Assembly: GCF_964026685.1 (NCBI RefSeq)
Contig: NZ_OZ034688.1
Coordinates: forward strand, 248,001 to 312,000
Length of the DNA: 64,000 bases
From: Candidatus Providencia siddallii
GTDB taxonomy: Bacteria > Pseudomonadota > Gammaproteobacteria > Enterobacterales > Enterobacteriaceae
Direction: 5' to 3'
Shown here: piece after piece, positions 1 to 49,130 of the stretch
How the letters are laid out: each line of letters opens with the position of its first letter
How positions within the stretch are numbered: position 1 is the first letter of the stretch
Notes under the pieces: model-generated
The model's input: the letters and a program-made list of their open reading frames with translations, nothing else
What the model was told of the DNA's origin: nothing
Database searches by the model: none
Position numbers and translations under genes: made by a program

Positions 1-327
1 GAATGTTCATATCATCGTGTGTTTGTATCAGATTTTATTGATTTTTCAATTTATGTCGATGCAGAACCACAATTGTTAAGAGAATGGTATATAAGTAGGT
101 TTTTGAAATTAAGAAAAAGTGCATTTTTAGATTCTAATTCTTATTTTCATAATTATTCAAAAATAACAGAAAAAGAATCAATAGAAATTGCTGGTTTTAT
201 TTGGGATGAAATTAATGGTTTAAATTTAAAAGAAAATATTTTACCAACAAAAAAAAGAGCAAATTTAATAATAAGTAAAGGAAAAAATCATTCTATTCAA
301 AATATTCACTTAAAAAAATTTTTATAA
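1..327 (+). CDS. coaA: Pantothenate kinase, C-terminal part (cut by window start)
   Basis: Phosphorylates pantothenate, the first step of coenzyme A synthesis in the cytoplasm. Only the last 108 residues are visible; the reading frame is open to base 1, so the gene begins outside the window. The sequence [15 protein letters not shown], then [16 protein letters not shown] and LKENILPTK matches the end of E. coli CoaA almost position by position. It ends in TAA at 325-327 and its 3' end overlaps the convergent birA by 6 bases. The coaA-birA-murB order is the enterobacterial one. Vitamin B5 activation is commonly retained in nutritional symbionts (inference for its role here). Confidence 0.95.
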
Positions 328-1125
328 AAGTTTATTTGTGTTAAAAATTTTTCCATTTATGTAAGAATTAATTTTTCCATATGAGTTTTCTAGTAATAAT
401 TCACCATAGTTATTTATTCCTCTTTCTATTCCTGAATTAATACTATTATTAGTTAAAATGTTAATATTTTTATTAAAAAATTTATCTAAAATAATCCATC
501 TATTAATAAAAGGTTTTAATCCATTTTTTTCAAAAATAATTATTGATTTTATTATTTCCTGTGTAATATTTGCAATAAGTTCGTTTCTTTCTATATTTTT
601 TATTTTTTCTTTTAAATAAGTCCAATTATTATTAGTAAAATTTTTATTTTTGATATTATTTTTATTTTTTTCAATATTTATTCCAATTCCAATAATTGTA
701 TGTAATGAATTATCATTTTTTTTTATTGATTCAATCAAAATACCAGCGAGTTTTTTATTATTTATATATAAATCATTTGGCCATTTTAATTTTATTTTTT
801 TATTTATTTTTTTGTTTAATATTTCAGCTATAACTACTCCAATTGTTAAGCTTAGTCCAATTGTTGTTATAGTATTTTTTAAAAAAAATTTTCAATATAT
901 AGAAAAATAAATATTACCAAATGGAGAAAACCATTTATGTCCTCTTCTACCTCTTCCTTCGCTTTGAGTTTCAGCTAAACAAATATCTCCAGATTTTAGT
1001 TTTGATAAATTATCTAACATATATTGATTTGTTGAATTAACAGAATTAAGAATAATGATATTTATATTATTTATATATTTCTGTATTTTTTGTTTATTTA
1101 ATAAATTATTTTGTTGAAGTAACAT
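322..1125 (-). CDS. birA: Biotin-protein ligase, no DNA-binding domain, one in-frame TGA (Trp78)
   Basis: Activates biotin with ATP and attaches it to the biotin carrier subunit of acetyl-CoA carboxylase. The 267-residue product starts in the linker before the catalytic domain: [18 protein letters not shown] at residues 57-62, KWFSPFG, KWPNDLY and the KLAGILIE region are all present. The roughly 65-residue N-terminal winged helix that represses the bio operon in E. coli is absent, so this should be an enzyme only. A TGA at 892-894 interrupts the frame between NIYFSIY and KFF; E. coli has Trp there (LYLSMFW, from memory), and the frame continues unbroken afterwards. Read with TGA=Trp it is one complete gene. 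Start ATG at 1123-1125, stop TAA. Confidence 0.93.
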
Positions 1126-21514: not shown

Positions 21515-22816
21515 TTATTTTTTTATATTTCGAATTAATAAAGCAAATTTTATATCTGTATTTTTTGGAATTTTTAAATATACAACATGTCCATCTCCAG
21601 GTGCTATATTAATTATTTCATTTTTATAATTTTTTAAAGTCTTTAATATAAATACAATATTTTTTGAAATCGTCATTATTTCTAAACTATCACCTATACT
21701 AAATTTATTTTTTACATTTAATTCAGCAAAGTTATTTAAGAATTTACCTGTGAATTCACCGACAAATTGTTGACTGCTAGAAATTGAATGACTAAAATCA
21801 TAGTTTTGATAAGAAATATGGTTTGCATGACGATTTAAAAAACCTTCAGTATATCCACGATTAGATAATTTTTTAATCGAAGATATTAAAAAATTAGAAA
21901 CTTGTTTTCCATTTATGACGCTATTAATTGCTTTTCGATATATTTGAGCTGTACGTGCACAATAATAAAAAGATTTTGTTCTTCCTTCTATTTTAAAAGA
22001 GTTTATGCCAATTTTTATTAATTTTTCTATGTATTTTATAGCACATAGATCTTTTGAATTTATTATATATGAACCATGTTCATCTTCAGATAGAAGCATA
22101 TATTCTTTTGAAGTATTATTATTAATAGTAAAAGTTTTATTTATTATTTTATTTTTAAATATTGAAGAGTTTTCTATATTATTTATTCTATATTTTTTAT
22201 ATTCATATATGTTATATTTCCAACGGCATATATTTGTACAAGCTCCTTGATTAGAATCACGTTTGTTTATATAACTTGATAATAAACATCTTCCTGAATA
22301 TGCCATACATAAGGAACCGTGTATAAAAACCTCTAATTCGATATCAGGAACTAGTTTTTTTATTTCAAAAATTTCATTTATAGATAATTCACGTGATAAA
22401 ATAATTCTATTTAATCCTATTTGTTTTCAAAATTTAACTGAAGCCCAATTTATTGTATTTGCTTGAACAGATAAATGAATTTTTATTTCAGGAAATAATT
22501 CACGTGTTATCATTATTAACCCAGGATCTGATATAATTAATGCATCTGGTTTTAATTTTACTATTTTTATTAAATCCTTAGAAAAAGTTTTTAATTTATC
22601 GTTATGAGGAATTATATTTATAACAATATAAAATTTTTTATTCAAATTATGAGCTTCTTTAATTCCTTGTGATAAATTTTTATAATTAAATTCGTTATTT
22701 CGCACGCGTAAACTGTAACGTGGTTCACCCGCATAAACAGCATCTGCTCCATAAGCAAATGCATATCTCATGTTTTTTAATGAACCTGCAGGTGATGATA
22801 GCTCTGGTTTTAACAT
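21515..22816 (-). CDS. trhP: tRNA 5-hydroxyuridine hydroxylase TrhP (YegQ, peptidase U32 family), one in-frame TGA (Trp130)
   Basis: U32-family protein that helps make 5-hydroxyuridine at the wobble position of tRNAs. The first part has LSSPAGSLKNMRYAFAYGADAVYAG (in pieces), SLRVRNNEFN and HLSVQANTINWASVKF. The frame then meets TGA at 22427-22429 and goes on without a break: KQIGLNRIILSRELS, the cysteine cluster FIHGSLCMAYSGRCLLS, KIEGRTKSFYYCARTAQ and RGYTEGFL. E. coli has VKFW at the TGA (from memory), so TGA=Trp gives one 433-residue protein (E. coli 453). Note that a modifier of wobble U is relevant in a genome changing a U-starting codon (speculative). Start ATG 22814-22816; stop TAA. 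Confidence 0.92.
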
Positions 22817-27037: not shown

Positions 27038-28378
27038 TTAAATAATCAATCATTTTAAAACTTTTCAATTTATTGAAATACCTATCTCTTTATTTTTTGA
27101 TATTCCTTCTAATGTTATAAAATAATTAACAGCTGTAATTAATGTTTCGTTATAAAAAATTAAAGGTATTCGATTACGCATTCATGGTGCAACTTTATAT
27201 TCTTGTCATATTTTTTTGATTTTTTTCGAATATATTTTATCAAAAATTTTAATTTTATTTTTAAAATCAAAACGTACTGTTACTTTTTCATAACAAAAAG
27301 GTGGTCTGATTTTTCCGTATTTAATTATTTCTAATATTCCTAAAGATTCAGGTAATTTAAAAGTATCAGGATAATTCCAATTATAACATTTTTTTGATAA
27401 ATTTTTTATATAATTTACTATCCATAAAAAATTTTGATATCGTCTAATTTCAATTTTATCTAAATAACAAATAGGATTAGCATTTTGTTTTGCTAATGCT
27501 ATCTCTAACCAAATTATTTCTAATTTTTTTAAAGATGGAACATGTATTTTATGATGTTTTATCCATCTACGTATTAAAGCATTTCTTTTTTGAGGAGAGC
27601 ATTCTAAAAGACCTTTAATTGATATTGCGCCATCATAATTCATTAATGTAGTTAGTTTATTTTGTAATAATTCGTCAATTAAAAGTTCTTGTTCTTTACA
27701 TAAATAAGCACTACGTGCTACCATTTTTGAAAAATGTGGCCATCTTTTATGTAATAAAGGCATAACATATAATCTAATGTAATTTCTATCAAAACGAATA
27801 TTATTATTACTGTCATCTTCAATATAATTTAAATTATTTTTTTCTATATAATTTTCTAAATCAGAGCGCATAATATTTAATAGAGGTCGAATAATAAACG
27901 TAGTTTTATTTTGAATATCAAAGGGAAATACTTCATGAATGGATGATAACCCAGCAGGGCCACTACCACGTTTTAGAGATAATATAAATGTCTCTGATTG
28001 ATCGTTTAGATGTTGAGCTGTTACAATAATTTCGTTTAATAGAAGTTCTTTTTTATAAGTTTGATAACGAACTTTACGTGCATTTGATTCAATATTGTTT
28101 TTCTGATCTATAACAACACGACGACATATAAAAGGTATTTTTCAATTCATACAAATTGTTTTGCAATGCTTTTCCCATTGGTTTGCTTTGTTATGTAATC
28201 CATGATTAATATGAATAGCACGAATATTTAATTCGGGTTTTTTTGAATTTTTTAATTTTAATAAAATATGTAATAATGATGTGGAATCGATCCCTCCACT
28301 AAATCCAACTAATAAATTTTTAAAAGAACAAATTTTGTTATATACTTGATGAATTATTTTTTCTGGTTCTTTTAACAT
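27038..28378 (-). CDS. tilS: tRNA(Ile)-lysidine synthetase with five in-frame TGA codons
   Basis: Adds lysine to C34 of tRNA-Ile(CAU), essential for reading AUA, a heavily used codon here. The N-terminal P-loop VGFSGGIDSTSLL, AIHINHGLH, LKRGSGPAGLS, RPLL and the EDDSNNNIRFDRNYIR region are all in one frame, as is the C-terminal domain (LGILEIIKYGKIRPP, VTVRF). That frame contains TGA at codons 79, 391, 399, 438 and 443 and no other stop. The first four coincide with Trp in E. coli TilS as I recall it (ENWQVP, KIWQEL, PPWLRD, FVWQK). The fifth (27050-27052) stands where the protein should end and may be a stop; TAA follows three codons later. Length is 446 or 442 residues (E. coli 432). HLNDQ replaces the usual HLDDQ. 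Confidence 0.93.
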
Positions 28379-32793: not shown

Positions 32794-33945
32794 TTATATT
32801 TTTATTAGTTTTAATATTTCATTTACAGCTTTTTCATCTGCATTATGACGTATTGTTTTATGTAATTTTAAAAAATTTTTTTTTAAAATTTTACAATATT
32901 TTTCATTATTTAATAGTTGAATTAATTGATTGCTTAATTTATTTGGTTGACATTCTTTTTGTAAAAACTCTTTTATTATTTCTTTTTTTGCTAATAAATT
33001 AGGTAATGAAATATAAGGTGTTTTTATTAATATTTTTGCAAATAAAAAAGTAAAAAAATTCATTTTATAACATACTACCATTGGGCATTTTGCTAACATG
33101 CATTCTAATGATGCGGTTCCAGATGCTAATAATGTAACATCTGCAGATATCATTGCATCTATAGATTGTCCGTTTAAAATGGTAATAAAAACATCTGGAA
33201 AATTTTTTTGTTTTATTAATTCAAATTGTTGTCTACATTTTTCATTCGCTGTTGGTACAATAATATATAAATCTTTAAAATATTTTTTTAATATTTTTGC
33301 GGTTTTTAAAAAAATATTACTCAACTTTTTTATTTCAGAATACCTACTACCAGGTAATATTGCTAAACATTTTGCTTTTTCAGGGATATTTAATCGTAAT
33401 CTTGTTTTTTGTTTATTTGGAATTAATGGTATTTTATCAGCCATTGTATGTCCAATAAAACAACATGGTATATTAAATTCATCATAAATTTTTTTTTCAA
33501 AAGGTAAAAATACTAAAATTAAATCAGTTGCTTTTTTTATTTTTATTATTCGTTTTTTTCTCCATGCTCATATTGATGGACTAATATAATGAATTGTTTT
33601 TATTCCTTTTGATTTTAATTGCATTTCAATATTTAAATTAAAATCTGGTGAATCGATACCTATAAAAATGTCTATTTTATTTTTAATAAATTGTTTAATA
33701 ATGTTTTTACGAATTAATATTAGTTTAGGTAAATATTTTAAAATTTCAATAATTCCAATAATTGATAGAATTTCAATTCCATATAAAGCTTTACAACCTT
33801 CTTTTTTCATTAAAGGTCCTGCAATACCAATAAAATGTATATTAGGATTTTTTTTTTTAAAATTTTTAATTAATCTTGCTCCAAGAATATCACCAGATAT
33901 TTCGCCGGCAATAATTCCAATATTAATTTTACGATTGTTAATCAC
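32794..33945 (-). CDS. lpxB: Lipid-A-disaccharide synthase, one in-frame TGA (Trp126)
   Basis: Joins UDP-2,3-diacylglucosamine and lipid X to the lipid A disaccharide at the inner membrane. The N-terminal part (IGIIAGEISGDILGARLI, FIGIAGPLMKKEG, GIDSPDFNL, HYISPSI) runs into TGA at 33568-33570, followed in frame by AWRKKRIIKIKKATDLILVFLPFE and GHTMAD, LAILPGSRYSEI, LASGTASLECML and PYISLPNLLA. E. coli reads SPSVWAWR at this place (from memory), so TGA stands for the first Trp and TGG for the second, two codons on. Total 383 residues (E. coli 382). Overlaps nothing; lpxA ends 45 bases upstream. Confidence 0.95.
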
Positions 33946-33990: not shown

Positions 33991-34788
33991 TTAACGAATA
34001 ATACCACGTTTAGATTGTGATGACTTTTTTAAAAAATCACTAAAAATTTTTACATGCTTATTTAATTTAGCTATTTTATCAATTTCTTCTCGAGCAGATT
34101 TTAAAGATTTTCCTGAACAGTATAATATTTTATATGCATTACGAATATATTGTAACGATTCTTTTTTAAATCCGTGACGTTTTAGTCCTTCAATATTTAA
34201 TCCAAAAGGTGTTGCGTGATTACCTTGTGCTATAATATATGGAGGAACATCTTGAGACACACCAGAACATCCACCAATCATTGCATAAGATCCTATTTTG
34301 CAAAATTGATGAATTGCGCTCATTCCACCTATGATAGCAAAATCATCAATTATAACATGACCACCTAATGTACCATTATTTGCTATAATACAATTATTTC
34401 CTATAATACAATCATGAGCTATGTGTACATTAACCATTAATAAATTATCATTACCAATTTTAGTTAAACCACCTCCTTGCATTGTTCCTCTATGAATTGT
34501 CACATTTTCTCTAATACAATTTCTATCACCAATTTCAAAGCGTGTAGGTTCTCCATTGTATTTAAGGTCTTGATTGATTTCTCCAATAGAAGAAAATTGA
34601 AAAAAAATATTATTTCGACCAATTTTTGTGTATCCATTAATAACTATATGAGATTTTAATACGGTTCCTTCGCCAATTTCTACATTATCTCCTATATAAC
34701 AGAATGGACCTATACGAACATTAGTTCCAACAATAGCTTTTTTTTCTATAATAGATGATGGATGTATGTAAGTTGTATTCTCAATCAT
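33991..34788 (-). CDS. lpxA: UDP-N-acetylglucosamine acyltransferase
   Basis: First step of lipid A synthesis, adding a 3-hydroxyacyl chain to UDP-GlcNAc. The protein is a left-handed parallel beta helix built from hexapeptide repeats ([18 protein letters not shown] and so on), with the catalytic His in [11 protein letters not shown] and the C-terminal [18 protein letters not shown] (in pieces). I chose the ATG at 34786-34788, one base after the fabZ TGA (TGATATG), giving [10 protein letters not shown] like E. coli MIDKSAFVHP and 265 residues (E. coli 262). A frame-extended start inside fabZ is possible but not supported by homology. Confidence 0.97.
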
Positions 34789-34789
34789 A

Positions 34790-35242
34790 TCAGTTTTCAC
34801 GACGACGAGCACACATCATTTCTGCTTCGCACGCTATTTCTCCATCAACTTTTGCTATACCTTTAAAACGAGCAACTCCACGACGTTCTTTAATAAATTC
34901 TACTTCTAAAATCATTTGATCTCCAGGTAAAACAGGACGTTTAAAACGGGCATTATCAATTGCTGCGAAATAATATAATTCGTCTTGTTCTAATTTTCCT
35001 GTGCTTTTAAAAGCAAGAATACCTGTTGCTTGTGCCATTGCTTCTAATATTAATACTCCAGGAAAAATTGGTTTACCAGGAAAATGTCCTTGAAATAAAG
35101 ATTCGTTATATGAAACATTTTTTATTGCACACAATGATTTACCTTTTGTAAAATTTAATACACGATCCACTAAAAGAAATGGATAACGGTGTGGAAGCAG
35201 TTCTAAAATTTCTTCTATATTCAGAGTATGAATATCACTCAT
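34790..35242 (-). CDS. fabZ: 3-hydroxyacyl-ACP dehydratase, ending in TGA
   Basis: Dehydrates 3-hydroxyacyl-ACP in fatty acid elongation. Hot-dog fold protein with [15 protein letters not shown], the catalytic His in [25 protein letters not shown] (in pieces) and Glu in the same helix, and [13 protein letters not shown] start at the ATG at 35240-35242 ([17 protein letters not shown] upstream) rather than nine codons earlier. It ends CARRREN then TGA at 34790-34792, exactly where E. coli FabZ ends (CARSREA). If TGA were always Trp, 23 residues would be added before TAA at 34721-34723, overlapping lpxA out of frame. One of the genes showing TGA still used at a natural end. Confidence 0.96.
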
Positions 35243-35282
35243 CGAAATAATTTTCCTGTTTATTATCAATTAATTAATGAAT

Positions 35283-39404: not shown

Positions 39405-40757
39405 TTAAAATCGAGATAAATCATTAAAAAGTGCAAGAGTCATTAATATTATTAAAATTAAAATGCTTATTTTAAAACTAATATTTTGTATTTTAGCAGA
39501 TACTGGTTTTCCTTTTATTTTTTCAATAAGTAAAAAAAATAATTGTCCACCGTCCAATACAGATAATGGAAACAAATTTACTACACCTAGATTTATACTA
39601 ATAAGTGCAATAAACATTAGATAATATACTAAACCCAATTCTGCAGAAACACCTGCTCCTTTTGCAATAGATATAGGTCCATTTAAATTATTTAGTTTTA
39701 TATCACCGATACATAATTTGCTTATCATATTAACAGTAATTTTTATTAATTGCCATGTTTTTTTAATTGATTTATAAAAAGCTAAAAATGGTTCATATTG
39801 TTCAATTATTTTATATTTATTTTCTAAAGGTTTAACTAAAAATTCTATACCAGCGAATCCTACTTGTTTATTATTTTGTTCTTTTTTTATGTCTGGTGTT
39901 AATGTCAAAAATATAATTTTTTTATTTCGTTCTATTTTTAATAATAATGGGATATTAGGGTTATTATAAATAATATTATTAATTGTATTCCAATTATTTA
40001 GATTTTTACCATTTACATTTATTATTTTATCATTAGGAATTAATCCTGATCTATCCCCAGCAGTTCCGATTTTTATTTTTTTTATTATATTATTAGTTTT
40101 TGATGATATCGGCATGATTCCTATAGATATTATAGGATCTTGTTTTTCTGGGTCAAAATTCCAATGTTTTAAATTTATAATTTTAGTTAAAGGTTTTTTA
40201 GAACCTTCAACTAAAATTTTAGTTTTTATTTTAGAATTACCAATTTTAGCAATTAAAGCCAACCTAACTGTATTCCAATTAGGTGTGTCTATATCATCAA
40301 TTGATATTATTTCCATTTTTGGTGTTAATTTTGCAAACTCTGCAATAGAACCTGGTTTTATATCTTCTATAATTGGTTTTGTTGATTGAGTACCAATCAT
40401 ATATACTAAACAATATACAATAACAGCTAATAAAAAATTGGCTATTGGTCCTGCTATTATTATTGCAGTTCGTTGCCATATTTTTTTATTATTGAAAGCC
40501 ATATTACGAAATTCAGGAGGAATTATACTAGTATGTTCATCCATCATTTTTACATAACCACCAAGTGGTATCATGGCTATGATAAATTCTGTATTATGTT
40601 TATTAAATTTACGCCATAAAATTTTACCAAACCCAATTGAAAAACGTTCTATATGTACACCACATTGTCGTGCAATAAAATAATGACCAAATTCATGTGC
40701 GGTTATTAAAACACCTATTGTTATAATAAAAGCAGTTAGGTTTCAAATAAATTCCAT
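39405..40757 (-). CDS. rseP: Site-2 metalloprotease RseP, with TGA at codon 5 (Trp5)
   Basis: Inner-membrane zinc protease that cleaves RseA (sigma-E pathway) and signal-peptide remnants. From ATG at 40755-40757, preceded by a strong GGAGGA site, the frame reads MEFI-TGA-NL, then the zinc motif HEFGH (residues 21-25), RFSIGFGKILW and PLGGYVKM. Two PDZ domains follow (about 120-310), then NLFPLSVLDGGQL with the third zinc ligand. With TGA=Trp the protein has 450 residues, the same as E. coli RseP, whose N-terminus also has Trp near this place (MLSFLWDLA, from memory). If TGA stopped translation here the protein would be lost entirely, since the next ATG lies past the zinc site. Confidence 0.95.
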
Positions 40758-47378: not shown

Positions 47379-48173
47379 ATGTCTATTTTTATAAAAACTG
47401 AAAAAGATATTCAAAAAATGCGTATAGCAGGGCATTTAGCAGCAGAAGTTTTAGAGATGATTGAATATTACATTGTTCCTGGTGTTAAAACAGGTAAACT
47501 TAATGATATTTGTCATAAATATATAATTGATAAACAAAAAGCTATACCAGCAATTTTTAATTACAATGGATTTCCTAAGTCTGTTTGTATTTCAGTAAAT
47601 GATGTTGTATGTCATGGTATCCCAAGTTATAGAAAAATTCTAAAAAATGGTGATATTGTTAATATAGATGTTACAGTTATTAAAAATGGTTTTTATGCTG
47701 ATACATCTAAGATGTTTTTTGTTGGAAAACCAACAATTCAAGGGAAGCGTCTTTGTAAGATCGCCCAAGAAAGTTTATATTTAGCAATAAGAATGATAAA
47801 ACCAGGTGTACGATTATGTATTATTGGCAAAACAATTCAAGATTTTGTTGAAAAATATGATTTATCAATAGTAAGAGAATTTTGTGGACATGGGATAGGT
47901 AAAAATTTTCATGAAGAACCTCAAATTTTACATTATAATGCAGAAGATAAAAATATTATTTTTCAAAAAGGAATGACTTTTACCATTGAACCGATGATCA
48001 ATATTGGAGATTCTCGTATTAGAATAATGAAAGATGGTTGGACTGTAAAAACTAAAAACAGAGGTTTATCTGCTCAATATGAACATACTTTACTTGTAAC
48101 TGATAAAGGTTGCGAAATATTTACATTACGTAAAGAAGAAAGATTTTCCTCTGCAATATTAATTAATGAATGA
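47379..48173 (+). CDS. map: Methionine aminopeptidase, ending in TGA
   Basis: Removes the initiator methionine. All metal ligands can be seen: His in VCHGIPS, Asp in VNIDVTVIKNGFYADTS (two), His in CGHGIGKNFHEEP, Glu in FTIEPMIN and Glu in QYEHTLLVT. 264 residues, equal to E. coli. It ends ILINE then TGA at 48171-48173, the same point as E. coli (ISHDE). Reading that TGA as Trp would add 28 residues of Lys/Asn/Phe-rich, spacer-like sequence before TAA at 48255-48257. This is the second clear case of TGA at a natural end. glnD, normally between map and dapD, is lost. Confidence 0.97.
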   Translation: MSIFIKTEKDIQKMRIAGHLAAEVLEMIEYYIVPGVKTGKLNDICHKYIIDKQKAIPAIFNYNGFPKSVCISVNDVVCHGIPSYRKILKNGDIVNIDVTVIKNGFYADTSKMFFVGKPTIQGKRLCKIAQESLYLAIRMIKPGVRLCIIGKTIQDFVEKYDLSIVREFCGHGIGKNFHEEPQILHYNAEDKNIIFQKGMTFTIEPMINIGDSRIRIMKDGWTVKTKNRGLSAQYEHTLLVTDKGCEIFTLRKEERFSSAILINE

Positions 48174-48305: not shown

Positions 48306-49130
48306 ATGTATAAATTACAAACTATTATAGAAAGTGCTTTTGAAAATAAAGACACAATAAGACCAAATACTGTATCATTAGAAATTAAAAATGCAGTTTT
48401 TGATGTTATTAATTTGCTGAATATAGGAAAATTACGTGTTGCAGAAAAAATAAATGATATATGAATTACTCATCAATGGTTGAAAAAAGCTATATTGTTA
48501 TCGTTTATTATACAAAATAATAAAATCATTAAAGGTATTGAAAGTTGTTATTTTGATAAAATTCCTACAAAATTTTTCAATTACGATCAAAAACGATTTG
48601 AAAAAGAATGTATTAGGGTTGTTCCTCAAGCAATTGCACGTAAAGGTTCTTATATTGGTAAAAATACTGTTTTAATGCCATGTTATGTTAATATTGGAGC
48701 TTATATTGATGAAGGAACAATGATTGATACTTGGGCAACTATTGGTTCATGTGCTCAAATAGGTAAAAATGTTCATATATCTGGCGGTGTAGGTATAGGT
48801 GGTGTTCTTGAACCGTTACAAAATAACCCAACAATTATTGAAAATGATTGTTTTATTGGTGCTCGTTCAGAAATAGTAGAAGGTGTTATTATAGAAGAAG
48901 GTTCTATAATTTCAATGGGGGTTTTTTTAAGTAAAAGTACAAAAATTTATAATCGTAATACTGGAAAAATTTTTTATGGTTATGTCCCAGCTGGTTCTGT
49001 AGTTGTTTCTGGAAATATGCAATCAGAAGATAAAACACATGGTGTTTATTGTGCTATTATTGTAAAAAATGTTGATAAAGATTCAAGAAATAAAATTAAT
49101 ATAAATAAGTTATTGAGAAATATTGAATAA
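48306..49130 (+). CDS. dapD: Tetrahydrodipicolinate N-succinyltransferase, one in-frame TGA (Trp53)
   Basis: Succinylates tetrahydrodipicolinate in DAP/lysine synthesis, upstream of dapE. From ATG 48306 the frame reads [25 protein letters not shown], then TGA at 48462-48464, then [13 protein letters not shown]. coli has [11 protein letters not shown] here (from memory): the first Trp is TGA and the second, five codons later, is TGG. The rest is the hexapeptide beta helix with [32 protein letters not shown] (in pieces) and ARSEIVEGV. 274 residues, as in E. coli. Without the recoding only a headless 216-residue piece would be made. Confidence 0.96.

Follow-up and report, generated by a model that had tools for sequence, protein, structure and literature searches.

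UGA as tryptophan inside genes and as stop at gene ends in Candidatus Providencia siddallii: an apparent partition by the following base

The tilS gene of Candidatus Providencia siddallii raises the question of whether a single codon can be read as an amino acid and as a stop within one bacterial gene. We analyzed a window of 64,000 nt (G000:C1:248001-312000; contig NZ_OZ034688.1) from a genome that consists of one contig of 755,758 bases, with a GC content of ∼22% in the part that was read. According to the original prediction, tilS contains five TGA codons, four of them at positions of Trp in E. coli TilS and the last at the natural end of the protein, so that one gene would need UGA decoded four times as Trp and, perhaps, a single time as stop. 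Translation with TGA as Trp indeed placed in-frame TGA at exactly the predicted codons, 79, 391, 399, 438 and 443, with the TAA following codon 446 (Table 1). A reading of the same interval on the plus strand was rejected, as there is no gene there.

The product of this frame matched TilS profiles nearly from end to end (NCBIfam PRK10660, E = 7.6e-161); both lysidine_TilS_N (TIGR02432) and lysidine_TilS_C (TIGR02433) scored over the NCBIfam cut-off, and the ATP motif SGGxDS is present as SGGIDS. In an alignment against 11 relatives, codons 79, 391, 399 and 438 all fell on columns dominated by Trp (Table 1), as predicted, whereas column 443 lay in the ragged C-terminus. Since the TGAs fall on Trp positions, and since the same was seen in ∼70 genes (see below), the pattern exceeds what chance would give. 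As had also been noted, TGG is used in the same gene, at codons 68, 213, 272, 290, 319 and 334. The genome contains one tilS only, with no second intact copy, and the tilS of the sister genome (G001; same genus, ∼840 kb) has no in-frame stop and is 62% identical. Three tRNAs with a CAU anticodon, that of the TilS substrate tRNA-Ile2, are encoded in the genome. Of the five TGAs, UGA443 alone precedes a U, and we therefore predict that it acts as the stop, giving a TilS of 442 aa, or of 446 aa if it were read through to the TAA. The proposed dual use of UGA in this gene thus fits the sequence.

To place tilS in the context of the genome, 584 kb of the 756-kb genome (77%) were read in stretches. 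A discovery set of 424 kb was compared with nearly all of the sister genome across 344 non-overlapping conserved frames and yielded 61 TGA codons opposite a TGG of the sister. A hold-out set of a further 160 kb, fetched once the pattern had been seen, added 29 sites, one of which lies in a spurious frame opposite the 16S rRNA. Altogether, 89 in-frame TGAs in 70 genes stand opposite a sister TGG. As a control, all in-frame stop codons were scored in alignments to the sister proteins: TGA met Trp in 59 of 73 columns, in-frame TAA or TAG in 2, the latter codons mostly lying in misaligned ends or gaps. The affected genes include purL, tadA, metG, glnS, ileS (partial frame), pheT, murG, rodA, waaA, lnt, dapF, dxs, fba, tpiA, folA, glmM, sufB, purA, priA, clpB and prfB, in addition to birA, trhP, lpxB and dapD in the window (Table 1). 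UGA5 of rseP, also in the window, is weaker evidence for Trp because the sister has Leu at this position. Similarity of the birA product to BirA profiles starts only near position 60, suggesting that the repressor domain at the N-terminus is absent. From the sequence comparisons it is near certain that UGA serves as a sense codon in this genome. It accounts for ∼7% of Trp codons overall, but for only 2% in genes of >80% identity and ∼11% in those of 55–65%; this scarcity in the best-conserved genes fits a reading of UGA that is less than perfect.

Table 1. Features discussed in the text. Positions marked global or preceded by G000:C1 are counted on the whole contig, those preceded by G001 on the sister genome, and all others on the 64,000-nt window.
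Feature	Position	Strand	UGA codon and next base	Observation
birA (biotin ligase)	322..1125	minus	UGA78, A	sister TGG
trhP (yegQ)	21515..22816	minus	UGA130, A	sister TGG
tilS, UGA=Trp frame	27038..28378	minus		446 codons, then TAA
tilS UGA443	27050..27052	minus	UGA443, U	TGA TTG; predicted natural stop
tilS UGA438	27065..27067	minus	UGA438, A	9/11 relatives Trp; close to C-terminus
tilS UGA399	27182..27184	minus	UGA399, A	11/11 relatives Trp
tilS UGA391	27206..27208	minus	UGA391, C	11/11 relatives Trp
tilS UGA79	28142..28144	minus	UGA79, A	9/11 relatives Trp
lpxB	32794..33945	minus	UGA126, G	in SPSIwAWR; sister TGG
fabZ frame	34721..35269	minus	stop UGA, U	ARRREN-UGA-TAT; sister ends at same place; readthrough +22 residues
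rseP	39405..40757	minus	UGA5, A	sister Leu
map (methionyl aminopeptidase)	47379..48173	plus	UGA265 (end), U	sister same end; readthrough +27 residues
dapD	48306..49130	plus	UGA53, A	sister TGG
16S rRNA	G000:C1:33562-35096	plus		single copy
lnt	global 75080-76624	minus	UGA153, U	three in-frame UGAs
23S rRNA	G000:C1:105217-108162	plus		single copy
rpsK (S11)	global 233397-233918	minus	UGA end, U	two consecutive UGA codons, each then U; readthrough +40 residues
CAU tRNA	G000:C1:324438-324510			presumably like E. coli ileX
prfB (RF2)	G000:C1:617459-618559	plus	UGA48, A	continuous frame
tRNA match without anticodon reading	G000:C1:702237-702321			85 bases; class II by length
Sister UGA site at Trp position	G001:C2:34719-35507			

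UGA nevertheless still appears to end genes. About 22 genes terminate at UGA at or near the end of the sister protein, among them map, fabZ and rpsK. RF1 and RF2 are both encoded, and the SPF and GGQ motifs of RF2 are intact. Judged against NCBI code 4, the genome has UGA at conserved Trp positions genome-wide, but it retains UGA as a stop, has not lost RF2 and shows no tRNA-Trp(UCA) among the 32 of 33 tRNA matches whose anticodons were read.

What could tell the two uses apart is the base that follows the codon (+4). In the discovery set, this base was A at 51, G at 8, C at 2 and T at none of the internal TGAs, compared with A279 T251 G190 C132 after TGG codons conserved as TGG in the sister (p = 4e-15 for A and 2e-9 for T by Fisher's test). 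The hold-out set behaved alike (A23 G4 T1 C1; p = 3.8e-6 for A, 1e-3 for T). Combined, 88 internal UGA sites had A72 G12 C3 U1, against A407 G258 C190 U358 after UGG; one of the 88, at position 34994 and followed by A, is the spurious frame opposite the 16S rRNA, without which A follows 71 of 87. Accordingly, TGA made up 15% of the Trp codons followed by A, 4.4% of those followed by G, and only 1.6% and 0.3% of those followed by C and T, respectively. Between positions −9 and +15 no other position had an effect comparable to that of +4, with a weak A excess at +5 only. At the sites that carry TGA here, the sister has A33 G17 C7 T4; the +4 base differs between the two genomes at 19 of them, 18 of which have A here, while none has lost an A. 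Terminal UGAs had the opposite preference, with U in 17 and A in 5 cases. U was thus found after 17/22 terminal but 1/88 internal UGAs (p = 1e-14), and was also more frequent than after terminal UAA (176/376; p = 0.007). All eight ends at which readthrough would add at least 11 codons were UGA-U, whereas the five apparent UGA-A ends had extensions of at most 9 codons and ragged ends. A strict +4 rule is broken by these five ends and by three internal UGA-C and one internal UGA-U, the last in lnt (Table 1). These counts strongly support a partition of meanings by the +4 base, with A inside genes and U at their ends. One and the same codon would then serve as sense codon and as terminator depending on its context, as in homonymous (dual-meaning) stop codes.

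We considered whether simpler accounts could explain these data. In a reduced, AT-rich genome, in-frame TGAs might stem from degrading genes or from miscalled bases. Such errors should not single out Trp columns for TGA while sparing them for TAA and TAG, would not be expected to produce a +4 bias, and sit poorly with in-frame UGA in essential genes; we regard this as extremely improbable. Full reassignment to code 4 would make every UGA a Trp codon and let the apparent UGA ends continue to the next TAA or TAG. All TGA frames in the window do reach such a codon, several after short extensions, and RF2 could have lost recognition of UGA, as proposed for the symbiont XS4 (PMC12213064). However, S11, Map and FabZ would then run past the ends of the sister proteins (Table 1), the RF2 motifs are intact, and U at ends against A inside would be left without a reason. 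Moreover, UGA makes up 7% of Trp codons here, although the other codon pairs ending in A or G use A in 89–97% of cases and two code-4 Mycoplasma phages have 86% UGA. With UGA still a stop and RF2 kept, this low share argues that reassignment is unfinished, and we consider full reassignment unlikely.

Alternatively, the change could lie purely in the tRNA, through a hidden modification of C34 or an unusual fold, with the +4 bias arising from mutation. A modification would be invisible in DNA, the tRNA-Trp of the genus has a D-loop longer by one base, and A-ending codons are favored about twofold before purines in this genome (A:G odds in eleven other A/G codon pairs of 20 before A, 19 before G, 11 before C and 11.5 before T). 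Yet GGA/GGG were almost free of a +4 effect, and a mutational null built from the other codon pairs predicted A40 G22 C9 T17, from which the observed A72 G12 C3 T1 departs clearly (p = 2e-10), so that mutational context is not enough to account for the bias. In the fully reassigned code of the two Mycoplasma phages, TGA was followed by A41 G21 C13 T10. A purely tRNA-based change is likewise unlikely. A-to-I editing of the mRNA would turn UGA into UGI, read like UGG; it requires no change in tRNA or RF2 and could prefer a certain 3′ neighbor. No candidate enzyme for such editing emerged, UACG, the motif of TadA, does not fit, and termination strength accounts for the pattern more simply, making editing very unlikely.

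We also inspected the decoding machinery. The only tRNA-Trp found has the anticodon CCA, and UCA was not seen in the 32 of 33 tRNA matches whose anticodons were read (the other being the class II-sized match in Table 1). Its sequence is ∼96% identical to the tRNA-Trp of relatives with the standard code, and the additional D-loop base is shared with the sister. Several candidate causes of UGA reading were rejected: besides the anticodon, the tRNA retains C27-G43 and all five anticodon-stem pairs, unlike a suppressor with a 4-bp stem, and keeps G24 in the D-stem, unlike the Hirsh-type G24A suppressor. An rRNA suppressor was likewise dismissed, as 16S h34 and the core of the 23S GTPase centre are the same as in the sister and in genome G009, which also holds for the decoding-site ends of 16S h44. 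The 16S and 23S genes are ∼70 kb apart and share no operon. RF2 has Ser at the position of E. coli residue 246, the canonical residue (PMC5373646), which speaks against this residue as the cause. The genome encodes miaA; prfC, the gene for RF3, is missing here, in the sister and in a number of further small relatives. In E. coli, RF2 has a low affinity for UGAA; readthrough of UGA is seen with the K-12 RF2, has been ascribed to near-cognate tRNAs for Trp and Cys, and is stronger when RF3 is lacking (PMC5373646).

We consider it likely that UGA has two meanings in this genome, with ordinary tRNA-Trp outcompeting RF2 at UGA-A and RF2 winning at UGA-U. In the mechanism that we infer, tRNA-Trp(CCA) would read UGA-A as a near-cognate codon and prevail in the competition owing to the weak binding of RF2 to this context, while UGA-U would be bound well and lead to termination. 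A 3′ A is reported by Engelberg-Kulka (1981) to favor the reading of UGA by normal E. coli tRNA-Trp. AT pressure would generate TGG-to-TGA mutations, which would be retained almost only before A (sometimes G, rarely C) because tRNA-Trp would beat RF2 at UGA-A, and natural UGA stops would persist mainly before U. Applied to tilS, this predicts Trp at codons 79, 391, 399 and 438 and termination at 443. As tilS needs four readthroughs, the reading of UGA-A would have to be efficient, above that of wild-type E. coli. The loss of RF3 probably helps.

RF2 itself may be part of this balance. Codon 48 of prfB is UGA (Table 1), where all 29 relatives compared have Trp, and the synthesis of RF2 should hence require that UGA be read as Trp. 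No programmed +1 frameshift was found in prfB here, nor in that of the sister or of G009. By terminating its own message at the UGA-A of Trp48, RF2 could limit its synthesis, such that more RF2 should give less RF2; this would replace the lost programmed frameshift and resemble its feedback loop in effect. In three other small genomes of the same family (G008, G011 and G022), the prfB matches contain in-frame TAA or TAG, perhaps reflecting frameshifts or decay. On balance, we lean towards a stable arrangement of UGA-A as Trp and UGA-U as stop, in which an ordinary tRNA-Trp coexists with a working RF2 that sets its own level through UGA-A, representing a live ambiguous intermediate ahead of RF2 loss or a tRNA change.

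The sister genome offers a view of the history of this state. UGA occurs at Trp positions of both genomes in rimM, tsaC, apbE and a frame that we take to be epmB-like, and in the sister alone in a presumably znuB-like frame. The rimM position is TGG in the six relatives read. The five sister sites, one of whose loci is given in Table 1, are followed by A in four cases and by G in one. The sharing of sites suggests that the UGA leak predates the split from the sister and expanded in the present lineage.

How does this compare with known systems? UGA encodes Trp in the reduced genomes of Hodgkinia, Zinderia, Nasuia, Stammera and Mycoplasma, as here (PMC2704378, PMC8629427, PMC13092985). The bacterial codes of this type known so far combine RF2 loss with a changed anticodon, as in Hodgkinia, or have a 4-bp-stem tRNA-Trp, as in Zinderia and XS4. 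Hodgkinia has lost RF2, has a tRNA-Trp(UCA) and uses UGA for 48% of Trp codons (PMC2704378), in contrast to the retained RF2, the CCA anticodon and the 7% found here, and the tRNA-Trp(CCA) of Zinderia has a 4-bp stem (PMC13092985), whereas ours is ordinary. A closer match is XS4, a putative dinoflagellate symbiont of the Fastidiosibacteraceae: according to passages of PMC12213064, it too has a reduced gammaproteobacterial genome with UGA at Trp positions, keeps the RF2 gene and has only tRNA-Trp(CCA). Its tRNA-Trp anticodon stem is described there as 4-bp, compared with the normal 5-bp stem here, and these passages report neither UGA as an additional stop nor a +4 partition, both of which are seen in the sequence analyzed here. 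In ciliates (PMC4967479), and in Condylostoma and Blastocrithidia as cited in PMC13092985, homonymous stop codes likewise give one codon both roles within a single genome; such codes are eukaryotic and split by position near the coding end, rather than bacterial and split by the next base. Ambiguous UGA in Bacillus subtilis is cited in PMC2704378. In E. coli, leaky UGA reading by wild-type tRNA-Trp(CCA) also depends on the 3′ neighbor and favors A, but it is a low-level error, while here it would be required in dozens of genes. Within the open-licence literature we came across no description of a bacterium with two UGA meanings split by the next base; such an absence is weak evidence. Cases of this kind could be overlooked, because the Codetta screen has no direct means of recognizing ambiguous translation or stops that depend on context (PMC8629427).

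How cells survive the conversion of a stop codon to sense has long been asked, and codon capture, the loss of RF2 during genome reduction and an ambiguous intermediate compete as models (PMC2704378, PMC8629427). With RF2 kept, an ordinary tRNA-Trp and both meanings in use, next to a sister that is nearly standard, the genome of Ca. P. siddallii looks to be in mid-change, a half-way state that is seldom caught in nature. Standard annotation would call ∼70 of its intact genes broken. If our reading holds, the ambiguous-intermediate route becomes directly testable in this lineage, and the pattern suggests that changes of the genetic code can start codon by codon, in contexts where the stop is weak.
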